From an uncultured Desulfovibrio sp. (GTDB taxonomy: Bacteria; Desulfobacterota; Desulfovibrionia; Desulfovibrionales; Desulfovibrionaceae): a stretch of 51,537 nt of DNA. The notes under the pieces are model-generated. The model did not search any database. It worked only from the letters and a program-made list of their open reading frames with translations, and was not told the DNA's origin. Each line of letters begins with the position of its first letter. Position 1 is the stretch's first letter. Positions 13,519-37,139 of this stretch are shown here, one piece after another. The stretch is from assembly GCA_905235595.1 (NCBI GenBank), contig CAJOMG010000013.1, positions 1 to 51,537 of the forward strand, given 5' to 3'. A program made the translations under genes and the position numbers.

Positions 13519-13534
13519 TGGCACATTGCTTGCG
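13519..13534 (+). promoter_or_regulatory. Sigma-54 (-24/-12) promoter for the 13580 gene
   Basis: TGGCACATTGCTTGCG matches the consensus TGGCAC-N5-TTGCA with the obligatory GG and GC ten bases apart. Its transcription start would fall near 13546, about 34 bases before the ATG at 13580. Two other small genes (21409 and 36618) have equally good sites. Confidence 0.75.
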
Positions 13535-13579
13535 TATTCACGCTCTTGCCTCCGGACATTCATTGGAATATAGTCATGT

Positions 13580-14002
13580 ATGGACAAAAATCACAGCGAG
13601 CTTTTTGGGCATTTCACCTATGACGACAGCCTGACGTACGAGGCATTGCTGGCGGCGGAAGAGTTATTAATTGATGAAATAGAACCTCTGTTGCAGCGGG
13701 GCGGTGCGGAACATCTTGACTTTACGCCCTTGGGCGATGCACTTATGCTTGAATGTGTCTTTGAGGAGCACAGGCTGTACGTATACCGAAAGATCGCTAT
13801 GGAAATTGCCGCAATGCTACCGGATGGCGTGAATGGACGGTTGTTGTGTCTGCATAAGGATTTCAGCTCATTGCATGTTTTTTGGCTGAGACCTGGAGCG
13901 TGGGTAGAAGAGGAACGTCCCTTGCCTGAAACACCGTCTGAAACGCTCAAGGTGCATCACGTAAGCCCAAAGGATACGGTGAGCTCGTCTGACGAAGAGT
14001 AG
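13580..14002 (+). CDS. Small acidic protein of unknown function (140 aa)
   Basis: A soluble, acidic protein with no signal peptide or membrane segment. It opens MDKNHSELFGHFTYDD, has two predicted helical regions around 20-40 and 70-90, and ends in a Ser/Asp/Glu-rich tail. I do not recognise a family. A near-consensus sigma-54 promoter lies 46 bases upstream and tRNA-Leu follows 30 bases after the stop. The ribosome site is weak. It is divergent from a diguanylate cyclase, so a link to motility or surface behaviour is possible but is inference only. Confidence 0.65.
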   Translation: MDKNHSELFGHFTYDDSLTYEALLAAEELLIDEIEPLLQRGGAEHLDFTPLGDALMLECVFEEHRLYVYRKIAMEIAAMLPDGVNGRLLCLHKDFSSLHVFWLRPGAWVEEERPLPETPSETLKVHHVSPKDTVSSSDEE

Positions 14003-14032
14003 GTTTGAGTGTCTTTTGGGAGTGGACAACGT

Positions 14033-14118
14033 GCCCGGATGGTGGAATTGGTAGACACAAGGGACTTAAAATCCCTGGCTCATTGAGTGTGCGGGTTCAA
14101 CTCCCGCTCCGGGTACCA
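14033..14118 (+). tRNA. tRNA-Leu (anticodon UAA)
   Basis: The acceptor strands GCCCGGA and TCCGGGT pair fully and the CCA end is encoded. The anticodon loop CTTAAAA, closed by AGGGA/TCCCT, gives anticodon TAA at 14067-14069. The long variable arm typical of class II tRNA lies between the anticodon and T arms, and GGTTCAACTCC forms the T loop region. Accessory DNA follows it on the right. Confidence 0.97.
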
Positions 14119-14130
14119 TATAAGGGACTT

Positions 14131-14166
14131 AGGGCTTCTTGGAAATTCCAAGAAGCTCTAATTTTT
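14131..14166 (+). terminator. Terminator after tRNA-Leu
   Basis: AGGGCTTCTTGGAA pairs with TTCCAAGAAGCTCT almost perfectly (two mismatches near the base), with a minimal loop, and a short T run follows at 14162-14166. Confidence 0.75.
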
Positions 14167-14171
14167 CTGGT

Positions 14172-14564
14172 TCATTCAGTAAAAGCGTACTTTGCCTCAT
14201 GAATGGCCAATATTCTGAGCTTGAAAAATTCAAGGTCTCTGTAGCCATATGCCATCCGCTTGAGTACTTTTATCTTGTTGTTTGTGCCTTCGAGCCTGCC
14301 AGAGGACAAAGGATGCTTTTGCGCGGTTGTGCGATCACAGTATTGATTTATCTCACACAATCACATTTCGAGTAGAATATCCTTGGAATCTTCACCTCCA
14401 GCCATATTGGCTTCTGGCCGATCGGTACGGTGTGTAATCTTCTTATAACACCCTTTACGAATAACCTTCCTCGATTTGCATACAGGACATCGAACAATGC
14501 GCCATTTGGGATGCACATGGAAAATAGTACAACCAGCATGAAATTTTTGGTTTAACATACTCAT
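14172..14564 (-). pseudogene. Internally deleted, frameshifted ISL3-family transposase
   Basis: The 5' part (from about 14564, MSMLNQKFHAG) encodes the ISL3-type N-terminal zinc finger, with VRCPVCKSRKVIRKG. The frame then shifts, and the homologous reading continues as HTVPIGQKPIWLEVKIPR in another frame. After KCDCVR it jumps directly to the family's C terminus, with SGRLEGTNNKIKVLKRMAYG and a closing helix ending at 14172. About 280 central residues, including the DDE core, are missing. It therefore cannot be active. A gtggacatgg/ccatgtccac inverted repeat lies upstream at 14600-14663. Confidence 0.8.
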
Positions 14565-14599
14565 AGCCAGACAACCCCAACGCATGGTAAATGAAACTT

Positions 14600-14663
14600 G
14601 TGGACATGGTGATTCCGCCTTATCGAGAGTTAAACGATTTCCTCAATTAGAACCCATGTCCAC
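14600..14663. repeat. Short inverted repeat beside the ISL3 remnant
   Basis: GTGGACATGG at 14600-14609 is repeated inverted as CCATGTCCAC at 14654-14663. It may be part of the former insertion-sequence end or an operator for it. No matching repeat was found at the other end of the transposase remnant. Confidence 0.4.
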
Positions 14664-14957
14664 TTTTTTGTCATCCCCCCAAGTACACAAGATGGGGATG
14701 AACCGGAATTTATCCGCGCCGGTCTGTGCATGGGCGGCACAACTGCCAGTGTGAGCTAGGATCTCACTTGGTGCAGGATGCTGGATGAGCTGAACAGCAG
14801 GAACCGTCGTGCGAGCGGCAGGGGAATCATAACTTGATCAGGCTTGTCACCGCAGGGCATGTGGAGGCTATGTGTATACGTTAACTAGCGCATATAAGGT
14901 CACTCCTGTCCTGAATTGTACAAGGCTCTGACTGTCTGGGCGGAGTAGGATTGCATT
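14664..14957. other. Non-coding gap with a possible gene tail
   Basis: The plus-strand frame ending at the TAG at 14757-14759 reads GDEPEFIRAGLCMGGTTAS, which looks like the end of a real protein but which I cannot place. Upstream it runs into the insertion-sequence end, so it may be a gene truncated by that insertion. GTGAG/CTCAC around 14751-14767 forms a small hairpin. The rest, to the start of the next gene, shows nothing recognisable. Confidence 0.35.
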
Positions 14958-16073
14958 ATGCAAAACAAGTGGACGCGACGCATGGTAATCGGGGCACTGT
15001 TTGGCGGTGGGCTGGGAGCAGGTGGATATGGATTCTGTCACAGTGCCAGGTTCGGGAATCTGCCTGAAGGAGAGGATCTCGCACGGATATCGCAGTCCGT
15101 ACATTGTGTGGATGGCGTGTTTTACAATACCCAGGTCACCCCGTTGATGGTTGGCAAGCAAAGTATTGTCAGGGGCTGGATGGATTTCTTTTTTAATGAT
15201 CAGCCGCGCCTGCGTCCCGAAGTACCTTTGCCAACCATGAAGATTTCTTTGCTGAATATTGATAGGACTCGGGACTGTGTTGTCTGGTTCGGGCATTCTT
15301 CATTCTATCTGCAGCTTGCGGGCAAGAGGATACTGCTTGATCCTGTGCTGAGTTCGTATGCAGCGCCTGTACCTTTTGTTGTCAGATCATTTGCCGGCAC
15401 GGATAGTTATAGTCCTTCGGACATGCCGGATATTGATCTCCTGCTGCTATCACATGACCACTGGGATCATCTGGATTATCCGACGCTGGTCGCGCTTGAA
15501 CCACGCATAAAGGCTGTTGTCTGCGGCCTTGGCGTGGGTTCCCATCTGAAGCGATTTGGATTTGCCAAGGAGAAGATTTATGAGGGGGACTGGGGAGACA
15601 GGCTTATCTTTGAGGCTATTCAGGTCATTGTGACCGAGTCCAGGCATTTTTCAGGCAGGCTGTTTACGCGTGATCACACGCTCTGGAATGGCTTTGTCAT
15701 ACAGACAGAGCAGCGTAGAGTGTATTTCAGCGGCGACGGCGGGTATGGCGCACATTTTGTCAGGATAGGCAATGAGTATGGGCCTATGGATCTGGCATTG
15801 CTTGATATGGGGCAGTATAATGATCGTTGGCCCTATGTGCATATGAATCCCGAGGAAGCGGCCAAGGCTGCGGCAGATGTTGGAGCCGGTGCCCTTATGC
15901 CGACGCATGTGGGCAGATTCTGTATATCGCGGCATCCCTGGGATGAGCCGTTCATCCGCATAGCTAAAGCCGCCACAAGATATCAGTGGAAACTGTTGAC
16001 ACCGATAATTGGGCAATCCGTATTTCTTGATGAGGATATGCGCTTTACAGCATGGTGGAAGAACATGGTCTAA
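14958..16073 (+). CDS. Metallo-beta-lactamase-fold hydrolase of the UlaG/NAPE-PLD type (371 aa)
   Basis: The metal-binding HDHWDH motif is intact at about 166-171, preceded by WFGHSSFYLQL and LLDPVLSS, which are typical of the UlaG/N-acylphosphatidylethanolamine phospholipase D-like branch. Further ligands lie in ESRHFSGR, YFSGDGGYG and PTHVGRF. The N terminus (TRRMVIGALFGGGLGAGGYG) resembles a twin-arginine or membrane anchor, so an exported phospholipid- or sugar-phosphate-type hydrolase is plausible. The substrate is unknown. It sits alone in the accessory patch, and the repeat B copy begins eight bases after its stop. Confidence 0.8.
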   Translation: MQNKWTRRMVIGALFGGGLGAGGYGFCHSARFGNLPEGEDLARISQSVHCVDGVFYNTQVTPLMVGKQSIVRGWMDFFFNDQPRLRPEVPLPTMKISLLNIDRTRDCVVWFGHSSFYLQLAGKRILLDPVLSSYAAPVPFVVRSFAGTDSYSPSDMPDIDLLLLSHDHWDHLDYPTLVALEPRIKAVVCGLGVGSHLKRFGFAKEKIYEGDWGDRLIFEAIQVIVTESRHFSGRLFTRDHTLWNGFVIQTEQRRVYFSGDGGYGAHFVRIGNEYGPMDLALLDMGQYNDRWPYVHMNPEEAAKAAADVGAGALMPTHVGRFCISRHPWDEPFIRIAKAATRYQWKLLTPIIGQSVFLDEDMRFTAWWKNMV

Positions 16074-16080
16074 AAATACT

Positions 16081-16137
16081 GGTTCCTCGACGTTTGATAT
16101 GGAATTTTACAAAGGGAACACAAGCTCCTTGATGGGT
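16081..16137 (-). repeat. 57-bp dispersed repeat, copy B
   Basis: Read on the minus strand, this matches 316-372 at about 46 of 57 positions, with the 13 first and 15 last bases identical. It lies exactly between the end of the metallo-hydrolase gene and the broken end of the TRAP permease, where base composition also jumps. It therefore marks a recombination or insertion boundary. Confidence 0.6.
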
Positions 16138-16605
16138 ATTGAACAAACCGTCGTCGAGAGCGCGGCTCTGATCATGTTTCTCATGGGCACGGCCAACCTT
16201 TTCGGCTTTATCATCACGGCAGAACAGTTGCCGCAGCATCTTGCGCAGTTCATCATAACGGTCACCGACAGCAAGATACTCGTCATGTTCATGGTGCTGG
16301 GCATGCTGCTTCTTTTGGGCACCTTCCTCGACAATGTGGCGGCTCTGGTACTCTTTGTGCCCTCAATGATGGGCGTGGTGCAGGCCTTGAAGATTGACCC
16401 TATCTTCTTTGGCGTGTTCACCATCATCGCCCTGGCTGTTGGGCAATTCACCCCGCCTGTGGGGTTGAACCTCTTCATCGCCTCCAATATTGCCGGGGAA
16501 AAGTTCGAGCGTGTCGTGAGCGCCACGATTCCCTATCTGCTGGCGTATTTTGTCATGCTTGTCCTGTTTATCGTTTTCCCCGGCCTGCTGACGGTCTTCA
16601 GGTAG
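16130..16605 (+). pseudogene. C-terminal third of a TRAP transporter large permease (DctM)
   Basis: About 155 residues match the end of the TRAP large membrane subunit, which moves dicarboxylates or related acids using an ion gradient. Diagnostic stretches are LGTFLDNVAALVLFVPSM, the VGQFTPPVGLNLFIAS loop and a final hydrophobic helix. A full DctM has about 425 residues, and the first two thirds are missing. The open frame begins inside repeat B, with codons that do not belong to the family. No small permease or binding protein is nearby. It is 25 bases before ansA and shares its high GC. Confidence 0.85.
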
Positions 16606-16630
16606 ATCAAGGCCTGTGCGGAGTGAGCGT

Positions 16631-17602
16631 ATGCAAAAAGTTGTTGTTTTCACCACAGGCGGCACCATTGCCATGAAACCCGACCCTGCGGGCTGCGGCG
16701 TGGTGCCCGCCGTGTCTGGCGCTGACCTGCTGGAGGCCGTGCCCGGGCTGAAAGACCTGTGCAACGTGGAAGTGCGTGAATTTTCAAATATCCCAAGCTG
16801 CCAGATGACGCCACAGCGCATGCTGGAGCTGGCGTGTCAGGTGGCCCGTGCGCAAAAGGAAGGCGACGTGCAGGGCGTTGTCATCACGCACGGCACGGAC
16901 ACCATAGAGGAGAGCGCCTACCTGCTCGACACGGTGCTCTGCGATGAGAAACCCGTGGTGTTCACGGCCGCGATGCGTGCAGCCTCAGACACCAGCGCTG
17001 ACGGCCCTGCCAATATCGCCTGCGCCGTCAGAACGGCTCTGGATGATGCGGCCCGTGGGCTTGGCGTCGTTGTGGTTCTCAACGAACAGATCCACGCTGC
17101 CGCCGAAGTGACCAAGACCCATGCGGCCAACCCCGCAGCCTTTGCCTCGCCCTGGTGGGGGCCGTTGGGCTATGTGGACGCCGATCGCGTTATTATTGCC
17201 AGACGCCCTGCAGTACGCAGGCATTTTTGCCCACCCGCGCTGGGCGGCGAGGTGTACCTGCTCAAAATGTGCGCAGGCTGCGACGCCAGCGTGCTGGACA
17301 TGCTGATCGAACGCCGGGCTGCCGGATTTGTGGTGGAAGGCTTTGGCAGGGGCAATGTTCCCCCGCTGGTGCAGCAGGCAATGCTTCGGGCAGTGCGCTT
17401 GGGCATACCTGTGGTGCTCACTACGCGCTGCGGCGCCGGCCGCCCATACTATGCCTATGGGTATGAGGGCGGGGGGAAAATCTTCCACGAGAACGGCATC
17501 ATCTTTGCCGGAGATACCAGCGGCCCCAAAGCGCGCCTGCGGCTCATGCTGGCATTGGGCATGACAAGCGACATGCAGGCCCTGCACAGCTTTTTTGACT
17601 GA
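16631..17602 (+). CDS. Type II-like L-asparaginase (323 aa)
   Basis: The enzyme hydrolyses asparagine to aspartate and ammonia. Both threonine motifs are intact: FTTGGTIAM with Thr12, and THGTDT with the Thr89-Asp90 pair, numbered from the ATG at 16631, which has a GGAG seven bases upstream. A GTG at 16616 in the same frame lacks a site. No signal peptide is seen, so the protein is probably cytoplasmic. GC is far above the rest of the window (some 60-base lines exceed 75%), which points to transfer from a GC-rich relative together with the TRAP fragment. Confidence 0.9.
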   Translation: MQKVVVFTTGGTIAMKPDPAGCGVVPAVSGADLLEAVPGLKDLCNVEVREFSNIPSCQMTPQRMLELACQVARAQKEGDVQGVVITHGTDTIEESAYLLDTVLCDEKPVVFTAAMRAASDTSADGPANIACAVRTALDDAARGLGVVVVLNEQIHAAAEVTKTHAANPAAFASPWWGPLGYVDADRVIIARRPAVRRHFCPPALGGEVYLLKMCAGCDASVLDMLIERRAAGFVVEGFGRGNVPPLVQQAMLRAVRLGIPVVLTTRCGAGRPYYAYGYEGGGKIFHENGIIFAGDTSGPKARLRLMLALGMTSDMQALHSFFD

Positions 17603-17732
17603 TTTGGGCAAATCCCCCCATGTTCTTTGCGGGCAGCGGCCTGTCCTGAAGAAAGGCAAAACTGACTTGAAAAAACGGCAGCTACCAGTCGTGCTTTTTC
17701 AGCCTGATCATAGGCAGTGACAGGGGTAGGTC

Positions 17733-18032
17733 TTACATGAAGCGCTGCTCGGCCTGCAGTGCGTCCTGGATTAAAACTTCACTCATGGCGAGCTCCTCCA
17801 TTTGCTCCGGCGTGGTGGAGCGGGAGAAGTATGCCAGCCATTTATCTATAGCTGTATATTCTGTTGTCTTGCGCCGTAACCGTTACCATTTAGGCAATTC
17901 CAGAAAGTGCATCTCAAGATCTTCAGTAACCAGTTGATTATACAGGCGACTAATGTGCAGGATACCTGGGCATTGTTCAATAAAAAGTCCGAAAGTGCGT
18001 GCACACCGGGCATCCGGTCACATCCAACTGTG
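17733..18032 (-). pseudogene. Decayed Rpn/PD-(D/E)XK-family transposase-like gene
   Basis: The minus strand reads LVTEDLEMHFLELPKW, an in-frame TAA, then WLAYFSRSTTPEQMEELAM and a short tail ending at 17733. Both parts are typical of the middle and C-terminal half of Rpn-like PD-(D/E)XK nuclease/transposase proteins. Another in-frame stop lies further upstream and no N-terminal nuclease domain is found. It may share ancestry with the gene tail at 1-117. The DNA between ansA and here (17603-17732) shows nothing else. Confidence 0.7.
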
Positions 18033-18057
18033 CAGATTTTCTTTGAGGATGAGCATA

Positions 18058-19134
18058 TTAGCGTTGCGAGGACTTTTTCCTTGGAACTTTCGTAGCAGAT
18101 CTGGCCGGTCTGTTGCGGCGATGGGTCACAGTTGCCGCGTCTGATGGCACGGGCTTGTGTTCCACAACATCGGCTAGGGCCAGGATGGTATTGGCATAAA
18201 CCGTCGCATGGTTGTATGTCATAAGTATTTTGTGCTGCCGTTCACGCGACAGGCCGGGCCGCCAGCCATGACGGGCAAGATAGTTGGAGAGGCTGGCTAC
18301 TGCGTCGGGGATTTCGAAGAGATCCACACGATTGTCATCATTGCCATCAGCACCATAGACGGTAATATTTGAAGGCATGAATTGACATAGTCCCACTGCA
18401 CCGTAGATAGAACCTGGCAAATGTTCCGGGGGAACATTGTCGCGAAGCATGTGCTCCACCAGTGCCCGTGTTTCCTTGTATGCCCAGTCTGCACGTTTTG
18501 ACATGGTTTCGGCAAACCAGTTGGCATGCTTTTCATGACCTGGCATACGTGGCAGCCAGTCGGCGATATCCTCTGTGCGGCGACTGACGGACATGCTGGC
18601 CAAAGTGTAGAAGGCATTTTCGGGCACATCACCCAGTACTGTGCCGAGGCGCGTTTCCACAAATAACAGCGCTACCGCTATGGATGCGGGCACACCATAG
18701 TGCTTTTCCGCCAGCGTAAAGGCTGTGCGGTTATCGGCCACAAAACGCCTGCATATTGCAGCATTTGCTTGAGTTACAACCCCTTTGTAATACAAGCTGC
18801 GTTTTTTGACAGAAGGTTTTGGAAAAAATTTGCGTTGATAGAGTTCGCGTATCTTTCTTCCCATGGGTGATTGTGTTGGGTTCTGAGGCAGGGTTGCCAG
18901 CAGAGCATCCACAGCAGGGCCTGAAATGCCATCTGTAGCGAGGCGTTCTCGCAATGGTAGCCATACAGGTGCTATGACCACCTGCGCGTGCGGAGCAGCC
19001 GCCTCCTGACGGGGCAGAGATGGATTGGGCGCCTGTGCGCCACTACATGCCGGTAATGACAGACACAGAGTCAGGCATAATAGAGAGCACACAGCGGTTT
19101 TTTGACAAAAAGCGGCCCAAAAAGACGGTCTCAT
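18058..19134 (-). CDS. mltB: MltB-type lytic murein transglycosylase lipoprotein (358 aa)
   Basis: This outer-membrane lipoprotein would cleave peptidoglycan strands to give anhydromuropeptides. The signal peptide ends in the lipobox LPAC with Cys30. The catalytic Glu is Glu160 in LLFVETRLGTVLG, followed by the family motif YGAVGLCQFMPSN and a C-terminal NYLARHGWRPG helix. The C-terminal tail is basic. It is 87 bases downstream of hflC on the same strand and could belong to the hflK-hflC transcript. Confidence 0.92.
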   Translation of the reverse strand: MRPSFWAAFCQKTAVCSLLCLTLCLSLPACSGAQAPNPSLPRQEAAAPHAQVVIAPVWLPLRERLATDGISGPAVDALLATLPQNPTQSPMGRKIRELYQRKFFPKPSVKKRSLYYKGVVTQANAAICRRFVADNRTAFTLAEKHYGVPASIAVALLFVETRLGTVLGDVPENAFYTLASMSVSRRTEDIADWLPRMPGHEKHANWFAETMSKRADWAYKETRALVEHMLRDNVPPEHLPGSIYGAVGLCQFMPSNITVYGADGNDDNRVDLFEIPDAVASLSNYLARHGWRPGLSRERQHKILMTYNHATVYANTILALADVVEHKPVPSDAATVTHRRNRPARSATKVPRKKSSQR

Positions 19135-19221
19135 GCGGCTACAGCCTTATCAACAGTAGTGGTACCCTAGCCGACAGTCGTGCAGTGTATAGAAAACAAA
19201 GGGGCATAGTCATACAGCGCA

Positions 19222-20070
19222 TCAGCGTTGCAGGTTGAGAAGCGGGGTTTCGTTGGTGAGAACCATTTTGCTGTTTTCCTTTAACGATTTCCGCATGGCT
19301 TCAAGATACCGTTGGTACGTGTAGAATTGTGGAGACTTATTATATGCCTGGGCATAAATGCCTGCAGCCGAGGCATCTCCCTGGCCACGTTCTATCTGGG
19401 CTGCCCGTGCAGCTTCTGCCAGGATAACAGCCTTTTGCCGATCAGCATCCGACCGGATACGTGTAGATTCTTCATCACCTTCAGAACGGTATTGTTTGGC
19501 CTGCCGTTCACGTTCAGCCCGCATGCGGTCAAAAATTGCCCTTTGGTTTTCGGGAGGCAAATCTGTGCGCTTGATGCGGACATCCAGAACTTCAACCCCG
19601 TAGTTGTGCATGAGCGCAGACACCTTGTCTGTTACTTCCTTCATAATGGTTGCACGGTGAGATGAAACAACCTGGGTCAGTGTATATGCGCCTACTAATG
19701 CACGAAGTTGTGAATAGACCACATCGTCCAGTCTCGCCTGAGCACCTGGTATCGTGCGCATGGTGCGGTAGAATTGCAGCGGATCAATAATTTTCCAGCG
19801 GGCATAGTTGTCGAGAACAATGGCCTTTTTATCTACCGTAAAGGCTTCACGAGAGCGTGCTTCATAATCCAGCACTCGTGCATCGAAATAGACAACATTT
19901 TGAATAAAGGGCACTTTGAGATGAAGCCCAGGGCCATATATCTCCGAGAGAGGGTCTCCCAGTTGCAGTACCAGTGCCTTCTGTGTCTGATGTACAGTAA
20001 AGAAACTTTGGCTGGCACCAACAATGAGCAATAGAGCCACAACTGCCAGCATGAGTGGATTCCTGGACAT
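19222..20070 (-). CDS. hflC: HflC, SPFH-domain modulator of FtsH (282 aa)
   Basis: One half of the HflKC cage that surrounds and restrains the FtsH membrane protease. An N-terminal membrane anchor (about 5-22) is followed by the SPFH/band-7 domain, with VHQTQKALVLQLGDP at its start, and a charged helical stretch rich in Arg, Glu and Ala (about 180-245). The family hallmark DVRIKRTDLPPENQRAIFDR is present. It overlaps the stop of hflK by one base. Confidence 0.95.
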   Translation of the reverse strand: MSRNPLMLAVVALLLIVGASQSFFTVHQTQKALVLQLGDPLSEIYGPGLHLKVPFIQNVVYFDARVLDYEARSREAFTVDKKAIVLDNYARWKIIDPLQFYRTMRTIPGAQARLDDVVYSQLRALVGAYTLTQVVSSHRATIMKEVTDKVSALMHNYGVEVLDVRIKRTDLPPENQRAIFDRMRAERERQAKQYRSEGDEESTRIRSDADRQKAVILAEAARAAQIERGQGDASAAGIYAQAYNKSPQFYTYQRYLEAMRKSLKENSKMVLTNETPLLNLQR

Positions 20071-21230
20071 TATTTTTTCTCCAGCTGCTTGGGTGAAACC
20101 GGCACACTCAAGCTCGGCAGGTTGAGATAGGGGAGGGCACGCCCTGCTGTGGGATTGTCCATGAGAACTTTTTCTGCAGATCGGGAAAGAATGTCCTCAA
20201 TGGCTTCATAATAGAGTCGCTGTTCCGTAACTTTAGGAGCTTTTTCATATTCCACGCGTAAGGCGTCAAAACGGGCAGCTTCACCTTCGGCATTGCGTAC
20301 CCGCGTGGTACTGTATGCTTCAGCTTCGTTGCGCATTGCCGCAGCTTGACCGCGTGCCCTTGGTAAAAGTTCGTTACGGTACGCCTCTGCCTCATTGATG
20401 ATACGGCTTTTGTCTTCCCGTGCGCTGGCTACATCCTTAAAAGCGTCAATCACTTCATGTGGTGGATGCACATCCTGCAACTGAACGGCAAGTACTTGTA
20501 TGCCAGCGCCGTATCTGTTGAGCACAGCCTGAAGTAACTGCGTTGCTTCGCTCTGGATTTTTAATTTGCCATCAGTGATGGCGGAATCAATCTGACTGTT
20601 GCCAATAACTTCCCGCATGGCGGCTTCAGCAGCGTTGCGCACCAGGGCAGTCGGTGCGCTAACATTGAACAGGTAGGCAACCGCGTCGCTGATCTTATAC
20701 TGAACGCTGAATTGCACATTGACGATATTTTCATCGCCGGTCAGCATGGAGGCCTCTTCAGGGATAGTGCGTACCTGCCCCTGTTGAAATGTTGCACTTT
20801 GGCCAACAGAACGAAATCCCACTTCGCTGCGAAGTACTTGTGTTACTTGAGGCTTGTATACGGATTCTATGGGGATAGGCCAGGCATAATGTGGCCCGGG
20901 GCCTTCAGTACGATTGTATTCTCCAAAGCGGAGCACTACCCCTTGTTCATCTGGATTAACAATATAGATTCCAGAGAGCAGCCACAACAGCAGCCCCGCG
21001 CCGGCAACCAGCCCGAGCGCCTTGCCGCCGGGGAAGCGTATGCGCGATAATCTGTCAAATGGGTTTCCGCCGTTATCACCCCCACCGCCGCGCCCGCCAT
21101 CGAAAGGTGAACGTCGTGCCCGCCTGGGCTCAGTATCTCTCCTGTCCTCATTGGCGTCAGGTAGAGGCGCTGGCGAGTTTTTAGTCTGTTTTTGCCGTTT
21201 TTCCTGCAGTTTATCCCAGTCCCAGTTCAT
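20070..21230 (-). CDS. hflK: HflK, SPFH-domain modulator of FtsH (386 aa)
   Basis: The partner of HflC. The N-terminal cytoplasmic tail is basic and Gly-rich (FDGGRGGGGDNGGNPFDR). A single membrane helix (about 73-92) follows, then the SPFH domain beginning IVNPDEQGVVLRFGEY, and a long Ala/Glu/Arg helix before a Pro-rich end. Length and order match HflK. Translation is coupled to hflC by the one-base overlap. Confidence 0.95.
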   Translation of the reverse strand: MNWDWDKLQEKRQKQTKNSPAPLPDANEDRRDTEPRRARRSPFDGGRGGGGDNGGNPFDRLSRIRFPGGKALGLVAGAGLLLWLLSGIYIVNPDEQGVVLRFGEYNRTEGPGPHYAWPIPIESVYKPQVTQVLRSEVGFRSVGQSATFQQGQVRTIPEEASMLTGDENIVNVQFSVQYKISDAVAYLFNVSAPTALVRNAAEAAMREVIGNSQIDSAITDGKLKIQSEATQLLQAVLNRYGAGIQVLAVQLQDVHPPHEVIDAFKDVASAREDKSRIINEAEAYRNELLPRARGQAAAMRNEAEAYSTTRVRNAEGEAARFDALRVEYEKAPKVTEQRLYYEAIEDILSRSAEKVLMDNPTAGRALPYLNLPSLSVPVSPKQLEKK

Positions 21231-21408
21231 GACGAAAGGCTTACCTTTGGTTACTCAATGCACTATCCTTATTTGATCTTCAGTTCGCCCGTGATCCATA
21301 ACAATAGATGATACAACGTGCGACTGCATACCTCTACAGACAATGGTACGCAATGTACGAAAAGCGTAAGATCAAGTCAATATCATTCAATGAATGGAAA
21401 GCACGGGC

Positions 21409-21738
21409 TTACTTCAGTAAACCAAGCAGACGGGCGACACGTTGCTCTGTAAGGCCCGAATGCGCACGGATGAGTTCCTGATTGTGGGCTTCTGCTTCCT
21501 GTTCCACTTGGGCCAGTGCCAGCTGCATTTCTTCAGAGTTAAGCATGTGCGGGCTTCCGGGTGATGTGTTTGCTATGACAGGAGCAGCCGAACTGGCGAG
21601 AAGCGTGGCAGACTGCGTCCTTTCAGGCAGAGAAGGGTAATCTGTGCTGTTGGCGGGGAGCATAGTGTTTACACGCTCTTGAAATGTGGGGAAAATATGT
21701 CCCATATCGTTATTGCGAGATCGAAATTCCAGTTCCAT
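21409..21738 (-). CDS. Small protein of unknown function behind a sigma-54 promoter (109 aa)
   Basis: The start at 21738 (MELEFRSRNND) is fixed by an AGGAG seven bases upstream. A longer frame exists but crosses the promoter's transcript start. The middle is low-complexity (Ala, Ser, Pro, Thr) and the last 40 residues are a charged amphipathic helix ending RVARLLGLLK. I recognise no family. A near-consensus sigma-54 promoter lies at 21803-21818. Such regulation is common for flagellar and nitrogen genes, but nothing in the protein proves either. Confidence 0.65.
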   Translation of the reverse strand: MELEFRSRNNDMGHIFPTFQERVNTMLPANSTDYPSLPERTQSATLLASSAAPVIANTSPGSPHMLNSEEMQLALAQVEQEAEAHNQELIRAHSGLTEQRVARLLGLLK

Positions 21739-21802
21739 AGTGCTACTCCTATCTACCAGAACACAGCGATCTGGATAAATTTGACAGATTTTGTTGAATT
21801 TA

Positions 21803-21818
21803 TGCAAATTACATGCCA
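21803..21818 (-). promoter_or_regulatory. Sigma-54 (-24/-12) promoter for the 21409-21738 gene
   Basis: On the minus strand the site is TGGCATGTAATTTGCA, with the invariant GG and GC exactly ten bases apart. The predicted transcript would start about 50 bases before the ATG. Confidence 0.75.
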
Positions 21819-21921
21819 TTAATATTCTTCATTGACTTTGAGCTATAGCGCAGCGTAATTTTACCATGATGGCAGTATGATGCGTTTACAAGACGAGCAG
21901 ATGGAGTGAAAGGAGCACGAT

Positions 21922-23838: not shown

Positions 23839-23852
23839 TGCTTGCCGATACA

Positions 23853-23872: not shown

Positions 23873-23879
23873 AGCGTTG

Positions 23880-28497: not shown

Positions 28498-28554
28498 TCC
28501 AGTAATGTGTTACAATACGTGTTGTGTTGGATAGATGGAGGTACGTCATCTCCC

Positions 28555-28583
28555 TTGGCTAAGAGTTGAGAGTTACATAAAAT
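28555..28583 (+). promoter_or_regulatory. Possible sigma-70 promoter for gmd
   Basis: TTGGCT and TAAAAT are spaced 17 bases apart, 40 bases upstream of the gmd ATG, in AT-rich DNA between two divergent genes. Confidence 0.45.
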
Positions 28584-28622
28584 ATTCTTATCAAATTTTT
28601 TAGCAGGAATAAAGGAAGAGAA

Positions 28623-29774: not shown

Positions 29775-29775
29775 G

Positions 29776-30726: not shown

Positions 30727-30750
30727 CTGTGTTACGAGCTCTGCTTGCAG

Positions 30751-30785
30751 AACCGTCGGTAGTAGTCACAAGCCGACGGTTTTTG
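30751..30785 (+). terminator. Terminator after fcl
   Basis: AACCGTCGG pairs perfectly with CCGACGGTT across a 13-base loop, and the stem runs into a T tract at 30780-30784. Confidence 0.9.
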
Positions 30786-30809
30786 CGTTAAGAGCTACGA
30801 AAAAAATTA

Positions 30810-30838
30810 TTGACATTGAAAATGGATTTCAATATTTA
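30810..30838 (+). promoter_or_regulatory. Promoter with an overlapping Fur-like operator
   Basis: TTGACA (30810-30815) and TATTTA (30833-30838) are 17 bases apart. Between and over them lies the inverted repeat ATTGAAA-ATGGA-TTTCAAT (30815-30833), which resembles the TTGAAAAT-type Fur boxes known from Desulfovibrio. Fur bound here would cover the RNA polymerase site, giving repression when iron is plentiful. The flavodoxin gene downstream fits that reading. Confidence 0.7.
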
Positions 30839-30873
30839 TAAGTCACATTAACGAAATTTACTGGAGATATACC

Positions 30874-31158
30874 ATGTGTGTAACCCTTATTGGCGGAATG
30901 GACAGGTTGGAAAAGGAATATATGACCGTTGCGGCTGATGCTGGTTTTTCATTGCGTTTCATCAAAAGAAATGAACGCAATTTTACACAGAAAATCGGCA
31001 ATCCTGATACACTCATTGTGTTTACCAATAAAGTCTCGCATGAAGCCAAAAGGAAGGCTGTTCTAGTGGCACGATCCAAGAATATACCCTTGCAGCTTGT
31101 GCATGCATGCGGCGTGTCTTCCTTGCGTGAATGTCTTTTCAAAGCGCAAGTTCGCTAA
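30874..31158 (+). CDS. DUF2325-family protein (94 aa)
   Basis: A small cytoplasmic protein with the DUF2325 pattern: CVTLIGGMDRLEKEYMTVA at the N terminus, LIVFTNKVSHEAKR in the middle and VHACGVSSLRECL near the end. Two or three cysteines are conserved-looking. The biochemical function of this family is not known to me. It is the first gene of the Fur-type operon, with GGAG seven bases before the ATG. Confidence 0.85.
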   Translation: MCVTLIGGMDRLEKEYMTVAADAGFSLRFIKRNERNFTQKIGNPDTLIVFTNKVSHEAKRKAVLVARSKNIPLQLVHACGVSSLRECLFKAQVR

Positions 31159-31211
31159 TCTGCTGCCAGCCCGGCGCGTGAACTTACAGTCGGAGTACAT
31201 GGAGGTTCGTC

Positions 31212-31607
31212 ATGGAACACGGCACACATGCATCACATGGACTATCACACTATTTCAGTCATGATAATTTGCATATTGTCCTTGATGGTCAGTTTGAACA
31301 GATTCAGGCTGATACTCTCATGGAAGTGTTGCGGGGTAATCAGGAGCATTGCAAACGCATCTTTATAGATGTACGCAGGGTAGCTCATTCGCAGCCTTCG
31401 GCGGTTACATCCTTCAAATCTTCATTGCGTTTACAGGGCGTAGGGCCTGAGCGAGTATATTTTAAAGGAAATCTTGGCTTTGATCTTGCCATCAATGGCA
31501 ACAAGGTGCTCATAGTCAAGAAGGAAGATGCAATACTACGGCATGAAAAAAAATATGTCTGCAAGGGGAACTGCGCACATTGCACCTGCGGGCATCACCA
31601 TCATTGA
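31212..31607 (+). CDS. Unknown protein with His-rich N terminus and Cys/His metal-binding tail (131 aa)
   Basis: The first 21 residues hold six regularly spaced histidines. The core (about 22-110) looks like a small alpha/beta, STAS-like fold (inference), with RIFIDVRRVAHSQP and VYFKGNLGFDLAI. The tail is CKGNCAHCTCGHHHH (residues 117-131), four cysteines and five histidines, a clear metal-binding signature. It is placed between a DUF2325 gene and flavodoxin under a Fur-like operator, so a role in iron or other metal handling during iron shortage is likely but unproven. No family name is recognised. Confidence 0.8.
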   Translation: MEHGTHASHGLSHYFSHDNLHIVLDGQFEQIQADTLMEVLRGNQEHCKRIFIDVRRVAHSQPSAVTSFKSSLRLQGVGPERVYFKGNLGFDLAINGNKVLIVKKEDAILRHEKKYVCKGNCAHCTCGHHHH

Positions 31608-32087
<480 letters not shown>

Positions 32088-32117
32088 TTATGCTCAGATA
32101 GGAATACTCAGGCAGTA

Positions 32118-32155
32118 GGAGCGCTCGCTTTTGACCATGTCAGGGCGGGCGCTCC
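32118..32155 (+). terminator. Hairpin after flavodoxin
   Basis: GGAGCGCTCGC at 32118-32128 pairs with GCGGGCGCTCC at 32145-32155 (one mismatch) about 30 bases after the stop. The T tract is weak. Confidence 0.55.
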
Positions 32156-32206
32156 TTGCATATCATAATATTTGCCCAATGAGCTTACACAAGGGCATAC
32201 TCAAAC

Positions 32207-33190
32207 CTAGAGAAATGTCTGCCGGAGTTCTGCGTCTGACATATGGCTCAGGTAGGCTGGAGGCACGTCAAAAAGAGTGCGGCAGCCTGTGGCTCCTTCT
32301 TCTGCAAGACGATAGACGGCACGTGCGCAGGCAGTGAGCACGCTACCTGTGAATTCCGGGTTGGAATCCAGAGTGAGGCGGTATTCAATAACGTGGGTAT
32401 GCTCCCGCTGCTGCCCGGTTGTGCCAGAGCGGAATACCATGCCACCGTGGGCCATGCCGCTGTGGTTTTTGCGCAGTTCCTCCTCACTGACGAAGTGTAC
32501 CGTAGTGTCGTAATCGGCGAAATAGTTGGGCATGGTTTTAATGGCCTGAGCCACAGCTTGTGCGTTGGCCCCATCTTCCAGCACAACAAAGCATTCCCTA
32601 GTATGTTTCTGACGAGTCGTGAGCCTGGGGTGTGTACCGGCGCGCACGGCTGCAAGAGCCTCTTCCACTGGCACGGTGTACTGTTTTGCGTTGCGTACTC
32701 CTGGAATACGGCGAATAGCGTCAGAATGACCCTGGCTTACTCCTCGCCCCCAGAAGGTGTAGTCCGAACCTTGGGGAAGAATGGCATTGGCATAAAGCCG
32801 GTTAAGGGAGAACATGCCGGGGTCCCATCCGCAGGAGATGAGGGCCAGATGACCTCCTGCCTTTGCAGCCGCATCCACCTTGGCAAAGTGATTCGGAATA
32901 TTGGCATGGGTGTCAAAGCTGTCTACAATGTTAAACTGCGCAGAGTAAGCGGGGGTTTGCGTGGGCAGGTCTGTGGCGCTGCCGCCACAGAGAATCATGA
33001 CATCGATTTTATCTTGCCAGTTGGTGATATCGTCCAGAGAGCATGAGATGGCATCCCCCGGTACAGCTATTGAAGAAGGGTCGCGTCGGGTGAAGACGGC
33101 GGTCAGGGTCATGTCAGGAGAACTCTGGAGAGCCAGGGCTACACCGCGGCCAAGATTGCCGTATCCAATAATGCCAATATGTTTTTTCAT
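32207..33190 (-). CDS. ddh: meso-Diaminopimelate dehydrogenase (327 aa)
   Basis: This NADPH enzyme makes meso-diaminopimelate in one step from tetrahydrodipicolinate, a shortcut of lysine and cell-wall synthesis. The start MKKHIGIIGYGNLGRGVA at 33190 has AGGAA upstream. A longer frame to 33910 lies over tag and is not real. Family motifs SCGWDPGMFSLNR, GRGVSQGHSDAIR and EYRLTLDSNPEFT are intact. It is alone on its strand and divergent from tag. Confidence 0.95.
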   Translation of the reverse strand: MKKHIGIIGYGNLGRGVALALQSSPDMTLTAVFTRRDPSSIAVPGDAISCSLDDITNWQDKIDVMILCGGSATDLPTQTPAYSAQFNIVDSFDTHANIPNHFAKVDAAAKAGGHLALISCGWDPGMFSLNRLYANAILPQGSDYTFWGRGVSQGHSDAIRRIPGVRNAKQYTVPVEEALAAVRAGTHPRLTTRQKHTRECFVVLEDGANAQAVAQAIKTMPNYFADYDTTVHFVSEEELRKNHSGMAHGGMVFRSGTTGQQREHTHVIEYRLTLDSNPEFTGSVLTACARAVYRLAEEGATGCRTLFDVPPAYLSHMSDAELRQTFL

Positions 33191-33316
33191 TTCTGTTCCT
33201 TTGTGGTTGGAGTTATTCCTGCGTGGCAGCAGGGTTCCCCTCCATCTTGGAGTATGATAGGTGACAAAAATAACAGGCAATGAAGCGGCAGGCAATGTAT
33301 ATACTGAGGAGAAAAA

Positions 33317-33958
33317 ATGGAATTGCAAAGCTCGGTACAACCCCCTGAAAAAATTAAAGAACAGCAGCGTTGCCTCTGGTACAAACATTCCGCTGAAAAT
33401 ATGCTGCGCTATCACGACACGGAGTGGGGTGTGCCTTGTCATGACGACAGGGGGCAGTTTGAGTTCCTCGTGCTGGAAGCGGCTCAGGCGGGCCTTGCCT
33501 GGCGCACTATATTGGATCGGCGGGAGGGCTACCGCCGTTGCTTTGCCGACTTTGACCCGCATAGGGTTGCCACCTTCACCGAGGACGATGTGGCACGGCT
33601 TATGACGGATGCGGGCATTATACGTAACCGGGCCAAGATCGTGAGCGCCATCAACAATGCCCGGGTATTTCTGGAAATTTCGGCAAAATATGGCAGCTTC
33701 TGCAACTGGTTCTGGGCTTTCACCGACGGGTGGAGTATACAAAACGCCTGGCGGACCATGGACGAGGTGCCCGCCACCAGCCAGCTTTCCGATACCATTG
33801 CCAAGGAGATGAAACGTCTTGGTTTCCGTTTTATGGGAAGCACTGTGGTGTATGCACACATGCAGGCCACGGGAATGGTCAATGACCATATCACACGCTG
33901 CTTCCGTCATGCAGAGCTGCGCAGTTGGCCCAGCTATGATTTCCAGTGCCCCTTATAG
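33317..33958 (+). CDS. tag: DNA-3-methyladenine glycosylase I (213 aa)
   Basis: A base-excision enzyme that removes 3-methyladenine. The zinc ligands of Tag are visible as Cys19 (RCLWY) and His33 (RYHDTEWG) near the N terminus, and as the His and Cys of NDHITRCFRH near the C terminus. WGVPCHDDRGQFEFLVLEA and LAWRTILDRREGYR are typical. An AGGAG-like site lies upstream. No LexA or Ada-type operator was recognised. Confidence 0.94.
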   Translation: MELQSSVQPPEKIKEQQRCLWYKHSAENMLRYHDTEWGVPCHDDRGQFEFLVLEAAQAGLAWRTILDRREGYRRCFADFDPHRVATFTEDDVARLMTDAGIIRNRAKIVSAINNARVFLEISAKYGSFCNWFWAFTDGWSIQNAWRTMDEVPATSQLSDTIAKEMKRLGFRFMGSTVVYAHMQATGMVNDHITRCFRHAELRSWPSYDFQCPL

Positions 33959-33981
33959 CGCATAACCTTGGAAGGTAATTG

Positions 33982-34662
33982 TTACACTATGCCACCATGC
34001 ACCTGAATGTGGTGCAGGATGACTCCCAGCACCCCCTCAATATCAAGAGACCCTGTGTCCACCACCAGAGCGTCGGGGGCAGGGCGAAGAGGTGCAATGG
34101 CTCGGTTGCGGTCTAGGGCGTCGCGTTTACGTATCTGTTCGGTCAGGGTGGTGAGGTCTGCATTTTGCCCCTGATTTTCCAGATCATGAAGACGGCGTAG
34201 GGCACGCACCTCAGGTGCGGCATCTAGAAAAAATTTGTAGTGTGCCATGGGAAAGACTACTGTGCCCATGTCACGTCCTTCGGCTACCAGGGGGGAGCGT
34301 GTTCCTAGCTCACGTTGTATGGCACAAAGGATGTCGCGTACAACGGGTACAGTGGCAATGCGTGCGGCAAGCATGCCTACTTCTTCAGTACGCACTTCCC
34401 CGCGTACGGGTACGTTGTTACAAAGAAGTGCGGTATGAGCCCCCTGTCCGGCAAGGTTGAAGGTCCATTGGCTACAGCGTTCTTTGAGTTCTGCCTCAGG
34501 CAGGTATTCTGCGCCTGGTCCTAGCTTGAGGGCCAGACAGCGGAACATGGCTCCCGTATCCAGATAGGAGATACCCAGGCTTTGGGCCACACGTCTGGCC
34601 AATGTGGTTTTACCTACGCCGGCAGGTCCATCCAGGGTAACAATGGGCAGGTATGAGCTCAT
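33982..34662 (-). CDS. cmk: Cytidylate kinase (226 aa)
   Basis: The enzyme phosphorylates CMP and dCMP. The P-loop is LDGPAGVGKTTLARRV and the substrate region GRDMGTVVFPMAHYKFFLDA is typical. The start at 34662 (MSSYLPIVTLDG) overlaps the hisC stop as ATGA, giving translational coupling. A longer frame starting at 34698 lies inside hisC and was not used. Confidence 0.93.
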   Translation of the reverse strand: MSSYLPIVTLDGPAGVGKTTLARRVAQSLGISYLDTGAMFRCLALKLGPGAEYLPEAELKERCSQWTFNLAGQGAHTALLCNNVPVRGEVRTEEVGMLAARIATVPVVRDILCAIQRELGTRSPLVAEGRDMGTVVFPMAHYKFFLDAAPEVRALRRLHDLENQGQNADLTTLTEQIRKRDALDRNRAIAPLRPAPDALVVDTGSLDIEGVLGVILHHIQVHGGIV

Positions 34663-35801
34663 ACGTCTTCTCCATGGACGCTTTGTTCTGCCAGACATTG
34701 GGCCAGCGCATCAAGAAATGCCTGGTTTTCCTGCATGGTGCCTACGCTCACACGCAGATGCTGTGGCAAGCCGTAACTCTTGAGAGGACGGATAATAATG
34801 CCGTGCGTTAGAAGATACTCAAAGCAAACGTGCGCCGCGGGGCCACCTTCGGGTAGGCGGAACATGAGAAAATTCGCTGCACTGGGCCAGACCGTACATC
34901 CCAGATTCGTGAGCCCATCCTGCAACTTTTTACGGCCAACAGCCACAGCGGAGAGTGTGGCTTCGTAAAAGGCTGTGTCGTTGAAGGCGGCAAGGGCTGC
35001 CTCTTCCGCTAGAATGTTAACAGAGAAGGGGAGACGTGCCCGCCAAAGATATTCTGCCAGTTCGCCAGGCAGTACGGCATAGCCCAGACGCAGCCCAGCA
35101 AGGCCAAAGCTTTTGGAAAAGGTGCGCGTAACGGCCACATTATCCGGCATGTGACCCGAGGCAAGTAGAGAAGTGGCAGCCTCATTGGTGGAAAAGTCCA
35201 TGTATGCCTCATCCACTACCAGCAGACAGTGAGGGAATTGCATGGCTAGAGTACGGGCTAGGCTTTCTATCTCCACAAGAGGAGGGCAATAACCTGAAGG
35301 ATTGTCAGGCATAGTCACAAAGACAAGACGGGTATTATTATCCACATGGGTGAGTAGCTGTACAAAGTCGAAGGAAAAATCATCTCGCAGTGGTTGACGA
35401 CGTATCTCTACCCCACAGATATGCGCCTGTATGGGGTAGATGCTGAAGCAGGGCTCAAAGCAGACCATATTATGCTGTCCAGGCTCGGCCAGCACACGGA
35501 TGCACAGGTCGATTATTTCGTCCGAACCGTTGCCTACAACTATACGGCGTGCATCTACTCCATGCCGGACAGCCAAGGCACTGGTGAGGCGGGGATTGCC
35601 ACCCTGCGGGTAGCGGAATGCCTCTGCTGCATGGCGTGCAATAGCTTCCTGAACCAAGGGAGATGTGCCGAGAGGATTTTCATTACTGGCCATCTTGATG
35701 ACCTGTGACAAGTGGTATTTTTGCTGTATCTCGGCAATGGAAAGGCCTGGAACATAGGCCGCAAGATTTTGAATTTCCCGGCGTACGGTCAGTTTTGGCA
35801 T
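34659..35801 (-). CDS. hisC: Histidinol-phosphate aminotransferase (380 aa)
   Basis: This PLP enzyme acts in histidine synthesis. The PLP lysine lies in TRTFSKSFGLAGLRLGY. ASNENPLGTSP, VGNGSDEIIDLCIRV and MPDNPSGYCPP are family motifs. The start at 35801 (MPKLTVRREIQ) has GGAG five bases upstream. It is the first gene of the hisC-cmk pair. A 15-bp perfect hairpin lies 30 bases before its start. Confidence 0.94.
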   Translation of the reverse strand: MPKLTVRREIQNLAAYVPGLSIAEIQQKYHLSQVIKMASNENPLGTSPLVQEAIARHAAEAFRYPQGGNPRLTSALAVRHGVDARRIVVGNGSDEIIDLCIRVLAEPGQHNMVCFEPCFSIYPIQAHICGVEIRRQPLRDDFSFDFVQLLTHVDNNTRLVFVTMPDNPSGYCPPLVEIESLARTLAMQFPHCLLVVDEAYMDFSTNEAATSLLASGHMPDNVAVTRTFSKSFGLAGLRLGYAVLPGELAEYLWRARLPFSVNILAEEAALAAFNDTAFYEATLSAVAVGRKKLQDGLTNLGCTVWPSAANFLMFRLPEGGPAAHVCFEYLLTHGIIIRPLKSYGLPQHLRVSVGTMQENQAFLDALAQCLAEQSVHGEDV

Positions 35802-35829
35802 GGCTTCTCCATGGCAATTGTCGGTACAT

Positions 35830-35867
35830 ACGTCATGCAACCCGCTGATGGACGGGTTGCATGACGT
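35830..35867. repeat. 15-bp perfect hairpin between usp and hisC
   Basis: ACGTCATGCAACCCG and its exact complement CGGGTTGCATGACGT flank an eight-base loop. No U tract follows on either strand, so it is not a standard terminator. It lies 12 bases after the usp stop and 29 bases before the hisC start, where it could stabilise the upstream mRNA end or regulate read-through. Confidence 0.75.
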
Positions 35868-35878
35868 CTTACGCATAA

Positions 35879-36337
35879 TTAAACTTCTTTGAATGGTTCG
35901 GTGGGGCGTATGGTCAGTACGGGCATGGTGGCGTTCTTCACGACCTTTTCTGCTACAGAGCCGAAGAGAATGCGGTCAATCCCCTTGCGCCCGTGGGTGC
36001 CCATGACGATGAGATCGGCTTTTTCTTCGTTGGCGCGGTTGAGAATCTCTTCAGCAGCGTAGCCAATGAGCACCTGCCCCTTGGCTTCCACACCTGAAAA
36101 ATGCTCCGTCACAAAGGATTCCATGGATTTTTCCGCACCAGTCACGATTTCGCCCACGAAGTTTTCAATGGTGTTGGGCGGTACATGGAAGCCAACATAC
36201 TGGCTGAGCGAGGGGGCAGTGTAGACCACGATCACGCTCGCGCCAAGGTTCTTGGCAAGTAGCACTGCGTACTCGGCGACCTCCTTGCTGTGATCGGAAA
36301 GGTCTACGGCGCAGAGAATCTTCTTGATGGATTTCAT
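35879..36337 (-). CDS. Universal stress protein, UspA family (152 aa)
   Basis: A single Usp domain of the ATP-binding type: the G2xG9xGS motif is visible as MGTHGRKGIDRILFGSVAEK, and the N terminus KKILCAVDLSDHSKEVAEYA is typical. Its exact role cannot be read from sequence. It is upstream of hisC-cmk on the same strand but separated by the hairpin at 35830-35867. Confidence 0.93.
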   Translation of the reverse strand: MKSIKKILCAVDLSDHSKEVAEYAVLLAKNLGASVIVVYTAPSLSQYVGFHVPPNTIENFVGEIVTGAEKSMESFVTEHFSGVEAKGQVLIGYAAEEILNRANEEKADLIVMGTHGRKGIDRILFGSVAEKVVKNATMPVLTIRPTEPFKEV

Positions 36338-36569
36338 TGCAGACTCCTATTCCACACGCGCGCGGAATGGTTGAAAGATGAGGAAATATGGTGCTAATAC
36401 TACTTGGCACCCCCCTTTGCCTTTGTTCCTTAATAATGGTAAAAATTTTTGAGTGGTTAGACAAGTCCCTTTGACCTTCTTATACTTTGTAATCTACGGA
36501 TGAGGAAAATTTTTCCTTGATAACAGAAAAATTGTAAATAAAATTAGTGCATTGTAAAATCTAGACTTT

Positions 36570-36585
36570 TGGCAGCATTCTTGCA
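36570..36585 (+). promoter_or_regulatory. Sigma-54 (-24/-12) promoter for the 36618 gene
   Basis: TGGCAGCATTCTTGCA has the invariant GG and GC exactly ten bases apart. The start of transcription would be near 36597 and the ATG is at 36618, behind CTGGAGG. Confidence 0.78.
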
Positions 36586-36617
36586 GGGTGTAGCGCAGGT
36601 ATAACCCTGGAGGCAAT

Positions 36618-37139
36618 ATGAAGATCAATAATGAACAACTAGAGGCTCTGTACCGGCAACAAAATCAGGCCATGGGCATCAAGAGCCAGCAAACCCGGCA
36701 AGAGGGCACCTTTGACGCCATGTTGGGCATGCAGATGGGCATTGCCGACGGCCCGGCTGCGGCTTCTTCTGCGGCAGCTGCAGGGCAGACTGGTTCTGCG
36801 GCACAGGCGTCCATGATAAGTCAGATGCTGCTGGCCTCGCAGACAGAGAACGTTAATCCCGTTGAAGATGTTATTCAGAATGCCTTTACCATGGCGTCTG
36901 GGACACTAGATATGTGGGATTCGTATGTGCATGTCCTCAATGCCTCTGGCCAGGATGGTTCATTGCGTGAAGCCTATGCCTTGCTGCAGGGCATAGACGG
37001 ACAGGTGGCCGGGCTCAAGGCAGGTGCGGCTGGCGTGCGTGGCCAGAATGCCGGTCTCGACGCCCTGATTAACGAATTAGATGTAATGACCACTACGGAG
37101 AAGTTCAAGTTTAATCGGGGGGACTATAACACTGTGTAG
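36618..37139 (+). CDS. Unknown Ala/Gly/Met-rich protein behind a sigma-54 promoter (173 aa)
   Basis: No signal peptide or membrane segment is seen. The N terminus (MKINNEQLEALYRQQNQAMG) is helical, the region 40-75 is low-complexity Ala/Ser/Gly, and the rest is predicted helical with NAFTMASGTLDMWDSYVHVL. I recognise no family, though the composition recalls flagellar or secretion-associated accessory proteins (inference only). It is monocistronic, with a sigma-54 promoter before it and a strong terminator after it. A sigma-54 activator of the NtrC class is encoded two genes downstream. Confidence 0.7.
   Translation: MKINNEQLEALYRQQNQAMGIKSQQTRQEGTFDAMLGMQMGIADGPAAASSAAAAGQTGSAAQASMISQMLLASQTENVNPVEDVIQNAFTMASGTLDMWDSYVHVLNASGQDGSLREAYALLQGIDGQVAGLKAGAAGVRGQNAGLDALINELDVMTTTEKFKFNRGDYNTV

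Follow-up and report, generated by a model that had tools for sequence, protein, structure and literature searches.

The stretch of DNA analysed here, referred to as the window, comprises 51,537 nucleotides of an uncultured Desulfovibrio sp. and corresponds to contig C13 of its assembly, G000 (2.45 Mb in 135 contigs, 98.97% complete). It contains three small genes, designated gene 1, gene 2 and gene 3, each preceded by a putative -24/-12 promoter site of the sigma-54 type (Table 1). The nearest record found was a goat-rumen Desulfovibrio assembly, with 96% identity in gene 3. The three sites reported in the initial annotation were present exactly as claimed, including the ten-base spacing of GG and GC, each with one mismatch to TGGCACN5TTGCW. 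In the reading that we consider probable, gene 3 codes for a remote FliX homologue, is under sigma-54/FlbD-type control and takes part in a feedback loop, gene 2 is linked to the flagellum within the genus, and the gene 1 site is due to chance.

Table 1. Features of the window considered in this study (positions in the window; fractions refer to orthologues or genomes as indicated).
Feature	Position	Strand	Remarks
Gene 1 -24/-12 site, TGGCACATTGCTTGCG	13519-13534	+	Kept in 2/30 orthologues, window included
Gene 1, conserved protein of 140 aa	13580-14002	+	82 homologues; 83/247 genomes
tRNA-Leu (taa)	14033-14118		Follows gene 1 at 30 bp; no other tRNA found in the window
Gene 2, small protein of 109 aa almost confined to the genus	21409-21738	-	32/247 genomes
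Altered counterpart of the gene 2 downstream box, TGTCAAATTTATCC	21773-21786	-	Intact box absent from G000 and its sister genome
Gene 2 -24/-12 site, TGGCATGTAATTTGCA	21803-21818	-	64 bp before the ATG at 21738; kept in 24/30 orthologues
Universal-stress-protein gene, divergent from gene 3	35879-36337		Seen in the window
Inverted repeat GGAA-N5-TTCC, GGAAAATTTTTCC, likely FlbD-type enhancer box (predicted)	36504-36516	.	53 bp upstream of the gene 3 site
Gene 3 -24/-12 site, TGGCAGCATTCTTGCA	36570-36585	+	32 bp before the ATG; kept in 70/70 orthologues
Gene 3, probable remote FliX homologue of 173 aa	36618-37139	+	Orthologue matches to PF10768 and NCBIfam FliX models
Histidine kinase (37217-38788) and NtrC-type response regulator (38807-40201)	37217-40201	+	Pfam; 77 bp after gene 3

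Sites with up to two mismatches were about as frequent in the window as expected (48 vs. 46.7). By a weighted score of our own, four window sites reached the lowest value of the three, the mean and the maximum in 30 first-order Markov sequences being 1.2 and 4, respectively; the fourth equal-scoring site (9777-9792) sits in coding sequence, while the other three stand just upstream of genes 1-3. In the whole of G000, TGGCACN5TTGC with at most one mismatch occurred 393 times, vs. 127 for the reversed pattern. Eighteen sites were perfect, that of gene 1 among them: 10 lay inside the following frame, 3 had no frame of 60 aa within 260 bp, and 5 stood free before a frame. Since only these 5 of 18 did so, the motif alone is a poor predictor. 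The window counts would fit all three sites being chance matches to a loose consensus, but this explanation is extremely improbable and is already contradicted for genes 2 and 3 by the conservation of their sites (24/30 and 70/70 orthologues, respectively).

Conservation was studied in 247 genomes of the same family, which were searched with one alignment per protein. For each gene family, the 250 bp upstream of the 30 best-scoring loci, taken from the 198, 32 and 83 genomes with gene 3, gene 2 and gene 1, respectively, were inspected, and a site was counted at p <= 0.02 against single-base shuffles. The gene 3 site was found in 30/30 of these loci, 32-44 bp before the start codon. It was also present in 40/40 further orthologues from 22 other genera, hand-picked for spread across genera, at 27-59 bp before the start in 37 of them and at 143-154 bp in the remaining 3. 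The orthologues inspected thus amounted to 70 of the 198, all with the site, and span the own genus and 24 further genera. It must be noted that neither these site counts nor the box counts given below are independent, because many of the genomes are closely related.

Upstream of the gene 3 site, an inverted repeat of the form GG[CA]A-N5-T[TG]CC was present in 62/70 orthologues (28/30 and 34/40), vs. 0.13 expected by shuffling; the pattern was fixed after the sequences had been looked at, and a box was counted if it lay entirely in the interval 40-80 bp upstream of the -24 site. Box and site were separated by 52-58 bp in 57 orthologues and by 65-67 bp in the other 5, while G066, G085 and G100 carry a perfect box at 93-94 bp, beyond the range scanned. 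In several genera the box is the perfect palindrome GGCA-N5-TGCC. Passages of PMC3333781 print the Caulobacter FlbD motif as CCCGGCAxxxxxTGCCGGG and that of its homologue, the Desulfovibrio flagellar activator DVU1063, as GGCAxxxxTGCC. The gene 3 box has a spacer of five bases, like that of Caulobacter FlbD, and allows the half-sites GGAA/TTCC, as in the window copy.

With regard to the protein, Pfam gave a FliX match for 9 of 28 gene 3 family proteins, this being the family matched by most members, and NCBIfam ranked FliX models first (NF009426 in 9/28, NF009427 in 6/28 and NF050808 in 3/28); the set of 28 includes at least four proteins (L273-L276) taken for their FliX scores. The curated cut-off of PF10768 (FliX) was passed in 5 of the 247 genomes, at the gene 3 locus in all five. 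The 8 best FliX hits across the 247 genomes were likewise all at the gene 3 locus (confirmed for G091), most of the weaker listed hits being elsewhere. Among eight orthologues, most of them chosen for their FliX scores, four exceeded the PF10768 cut-off, with matches from residue 8 to 139-148 of 149-159. FliX was not among the families listed for 81 gene 2 members (25/32 families) or 22 gene 1 members (6/6). The gene 3 family ends in a near-invariant KFNRGDY C-terminus, and AlphaFold2 modelled residues 81-167 of gene 3 as helical with fair confidence, the part before them having low confidence. The initial annotation had found no recognised domain in any of the three proteins; this holds for the window copies, none of which had a Pfam or NCBIfam match over cut-off, but not for the orthologues of gene 3, and the description of that gene as uncharacterised may thereby be superseded.

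The distribution of gene 3 largely follows that of flagellar FliF. It was found in 185 of 198 genomes with a strong flagellar FliF vs. 13 of 49 without one; the two classes were separated by an E-value boundary of our choice, weak hits, hits of the type III secretion system kind and no hit being taken together, and three genomes were classed as FliF-negative by elimination. Within the genus the proportions were 27/27 FliF-positive vs. 1/11 FliF-negative genomes, the one exception being G000 itself. The p-values of these co-occurrences overstate the evidence because the genomes are related. G000 contains flagellar rod/hook genes (5 Flg_bb_rod hits) and no strong FliF; its sole FliF hit is weak and concerns a frame of 261 aa. 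On its contig C28 (L280, 2139-6063), an antiporter-like gene and a phage-type integrase follow flgFGAH-like genes (names assigned by eye), at a place where flgI would be expected. According to passages of PMC7608387, flagellar genes have been lost in termite-gut Desulfovibrio.

An FlbD-like activator whose receiver lacks the usual aspartates (judged by eye) occurs in the sister genome G218 and in G212, so that gene 3 goes with FliF and, in these two genomes, with an FlbD-like protein lacking, by the same reading, the phosphorylation residues. This activator shared 48.3% identity over residues 144-500 with a gene of Azospirillum thermophilum, the top annotated one by bits and identity among the 40 listed of 2471 plasmid matches, which lies in a cluster of the order fliF, fliH-like, fliN, motA-like, activator, flhA. 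Separately from the above, a -24/-12-like site was seen upstream of the fliF cluster in G034, with GGAAAAATTTTCC 21 bp downstream of the site (fliF alone was identified by Pfam), and two Desulfovibrio genomes carry a sigma-54-like site, TGGCATGGCA[AT]TTGCT, just upstream of fliF (L282:3543 and L284:8351).

Gene 2 kept its site in 24/30 orthologues at p <= 0.02, the remaining six having p values of 0.025-0.13. Within the genus it was present in 26/27 FliF-positive vs. 1/11 FliF-negative genomes, and outside the genus in 2/171 vs. 3/38. A loose box, GG-N7-T[TG]CC, follows the site at a distance of 13-26 bp in 21/27 orthologues (0.78 expected), the 27 being the 30 loci minus 3 of other genera. 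Downstream boxes at 40-70 bp from the promoter, mostly those of DVU1063, are on record in passages of PMC4641369. The C-terminal part of gene 2 (HxGLxxxRVxxLLGL) has paralogues at seven places, of which four within the genus (L171, L173, L174 and L176) carry sigma-54-like sites at a distance of 71-75 bp upstream of the start, together with, judged by eye, the gene 2 downstream box in reverse orientation. The structure model of gene 2 had a mean predicted local distance difference test score of 67.5 and a predicted template modelling score of 0.30. Several records of the National Center for Biotechnology Information label relatives of gene 2 as pseudouridine synthase; no such domain was found in the window protein by Pfam or NCBIfam or among the families listed for the gene 2 members, and the label is probably a propagated misannotation. 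Gene 2 is a putative second sigma-54 gene linked to the flagellum within the genus; its box, downstream of the promoter, is related to that of gene 3 but less perfect.

Several results weigh against the interpretation of gene 3 and gene 2 given so far. The gene 3 protein of the window had no FliX match at E <= 1 in Pfam or NCBIfam, nor was there one in G000, and the FliX cut-off was reached in just 5 of the 198 genomes with gene 3. One gene 3 orthologue matched YlqD at 1.5e-5, helical proteins being prone to stray hits. A tblastn search of plasmids with the best-scoring orthologue gave no FliX. A Foldseek search with the gene 3 model returned nothing at E <= 0.001 and weak matches such as designed three-helix bundles, and a PDB sequence search had no match at E <= 0.001. 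The association with FliF has exceptions in both directions, 13 positive genomes being without gene 3 and 13 negative genomes carrying it. As printed, the motif of DVU1063 has four spacer bases vs. five in the gene 3 box. Gene 2 does not track FliF across all 247 genomes (p 0.35), and the strict box GG[CA]A-N5-T[TG]CC was found near gene 2 in 0/27 orthologues. Finally, FlbD was not among the 12 activators of G000 with a full sigma-54 domain. In this last regard, contig C1 of G000 ends about 1.9 kb short of the position of the FlbD-like gene in the matching stretch of G218, and the simplest reading, which is not proven, is that the gene is missing owing to an assembly gap.

Given the lack of a FliX hit in the window copy, the low FliX bit scores of the orthologues (28-32), the stray YlqD match and a helical model with no specific fold match, gene 3 could instead be another flagellum-associated helical protein driven by sigma-54 and an FlbD-type activator, such as a chaperone for export or an accessory protein of the rod or hook, with stray FliX matches. 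We consider this rather unlikely, as the FliX matches are near full length, come from two libraries and concern the commonest family in each (Pfam 9/28, NF009426 9/28), while gene 3 accounts for all of the 8 top FliX hits across the 247 genomes and the gene 1 and gene 2 families are without FliX among the families listed. Therefore, homology to FliX remains the preferred assignment; since the window protein itself has no FliX match, gene 3 is to be taken as a homologue via its orthologues and not as a certified FliX member.

The neighbourhood of gene 3 was compared by tblastn with the window genes. In the loci tested, gene 3 adjoins the universal-stress-protein gene (usp), hisC and a kinase-like gene, and the divergent usp gene was present in 15/15 loci reaching that far (L001-L007, L150-L157). 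A ATAGACAAG-like motif was seen between usp and gene 3 in all nine gene 3 regions inspected for it. The three genes had initially been described as monocistronic. This agrees with the position of tRNA-Leu next to gene 1, and it is neither supported nor contradicted for genes 2 and 3, which are followed by same-strand frames 178 bp on (20070-21230, on the strand of gene 2) and 77 bp on, respectively. The latter frame begins the kinase/regulator pair, which follows gene 3, complete or cut by the locus end, in 7/8 loci. As activator genes often adjoin their targets (passages of PMC4641369), the NtrC-type response regulator might itself activate gene 3 via the box, and gene 3 would then belong to a two-component stress or envelope response. 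The probability of this is low. The box and the promoter are kept in other genera, whereas among seven gene 3 loci from such genera only L152 showed any match to the regulator of the window, namely a 36% stretch that lies on the opposite strand; two loci within the genus (L007, L154) gave no match either. Additionally, the box resembles the published FlbD type, and gene 3 tracks FliF.

For gene 1, the site was found at p <= 0.02 in 2/30 orthologues, namely the window itself and G169, and three more had p values of 0.035-0.045. In the same stretch of the sister genome G218 the GC of the -12 element is changed to AC (TTACG). A lack of conservation in orthologues had been named beforehand as refuting membership of the sigma-54 regulon, and with 2/30 gene 1 failed this test. 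Because the site is not kept in orthologues and is broken in the sister genome, it is probably, from the sequences compared, a chance occurrence or confined to G000. It could still be asked if one sigma-54 regulon comprises all three genes, with a recent, lineage-specific gain of the gene 1 promoter. In G000 the site, TGGCACATTGCTTGC, is perfect; weaker sites stand 58 bp upstream of the start in G169 and G200; and gene 1 tracks FliF within the genus (26/27 FliF-positive vs. 2/11 FliF-negative genomes) and weakly among genomes about 90% complete or more (63/163 vs. 3/26, p 0.007). One of the 2 FliF-negative genomes (G216, 1.4 Mb, without FliF) has a gene 1 remnant with a stop codon (C1:908097-908240). 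Against such a gain stand the altered -12 GC of the sister genome, the 28/30 orthologues without a site at p <= 0.02 and the absence of association with FliF outside the genus (46/171 vs. 9/38, p 0.84), which make it improbable. Gene 1 was therefore rejected as a third member, and one common regulon of all three genes was not established. Of the three near-perfect sigma-54 promoters initially proposed, those of genes 2 and 3 are upheld by their orthologues and that of gene 1 is not. The proposed link of the regulon to motility is likewise supported for gene 3 and, as far as the genus is concerned, for gene 2 (promoters kept, co-occurrence with FliF and, for gene 3, the box) but falls for gene 1.

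The closest known system is that of Caulobacter, in which FliX binds FlbD and the activity of FlbD follows basal-body assembly without phosphorylation (passages of PMC3096577 and PMC7064773). Like gene 3, FliX is short and largely helical, and some gene 3 orthologues match FliX models over nearly their whole length; the likeness extends to the FlbD-like activator with a degenerate receiver in two related genomes and to the co-occurrence with FliF. In contrast, the host of gene 3 is not an alphaproteobacterium, the neighbours of gene 3 in the loci tested are usp, hisC and a kinase-like gene, and its promoter has sigma-54 and FlbD-type sites, while Caulobacter fliX is described in passages of PMC3930126 as an early gene activated by CtrA. 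FliX is said, in passages of PMC3096577, to occur in polarly flagellated alphaproteobacteria. In the open-licence literature, no paper was found joining FliX with Desulfovibrio or, under that name, with Deltaproteobacteria, and among the 3 papers listed for FlbD and Desulfovibrio the two were linked in this sense in PMC3333781 alone.

A second parallel is the DVU1063 regulon of D. vulgaris Hildenborough. DVU1030 is a universal stress protein adjoining DVU1032, and from this gene order our guess is that DVU1032 is the orthologue of gene 3. According to passages of PMC4641369, the only paper in which literature on these DVU tags was found, DVU1032 is a target of DVU1063 and its sigma-54 promoter fits mapped RNA ends. 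Like gene 3, the regulon has sigma-54 promoters (tGGcacg / tTGCt) and a GGCA...TGCC box (passages of PMC3333781 and PMC4641369).

From the sites and their conservation, the box, the co-occurrence with FliF and the family matches of the orthologues, all of them observed directly, we infer the identity of the binding activator, contact with FlbD, assembly sensing and feedback. Gene 3 would be transcribed from its -24/-12 promoter, most likely under activation by an FlbD-type regulator of the DVU1063 kind with a degenerate receiver, bound at the inverted repeat about 55 bp upstream of the promoter. By analogy with Caulobacter, the gene 3 protein may bind FlbD and tie its activity to the stage of basal-body assembly. 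Because gene 3 itself has an FlbD-type box, the FliX-like protein and FlbD would form a feedback loop, in which active FlbD would raise the synthesis of its own controller, a feedback that could be either strengthening or damping.

What would be new is a FliX homologue outside the alphaproteobacteria, the group from which FliX is described. We give about even chances to the wider proposal that the FliX-FlbD checkpoint also exists in the Desulfovibrionaceae in a rewired form, in which fliX is an FlbD/sigma-54 target feeding back on itself and would supply the missing input of DVU1063, the gene 2 family and its paralogues being further outputs. The receivers of FlbD and DVU1063 lack the phosphorylation residues, which raises the question of how DVU1063 is informed of the readiness of the basal body. 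With a FliX homologue accompanying flagella throughout the family and standing behind an FlbD-type promoter, this question would become directly testable in a laboratory sulfate reducer. If true, an assembly checkpoint would be common to two distant bacterial groups, in which it is wired differently.

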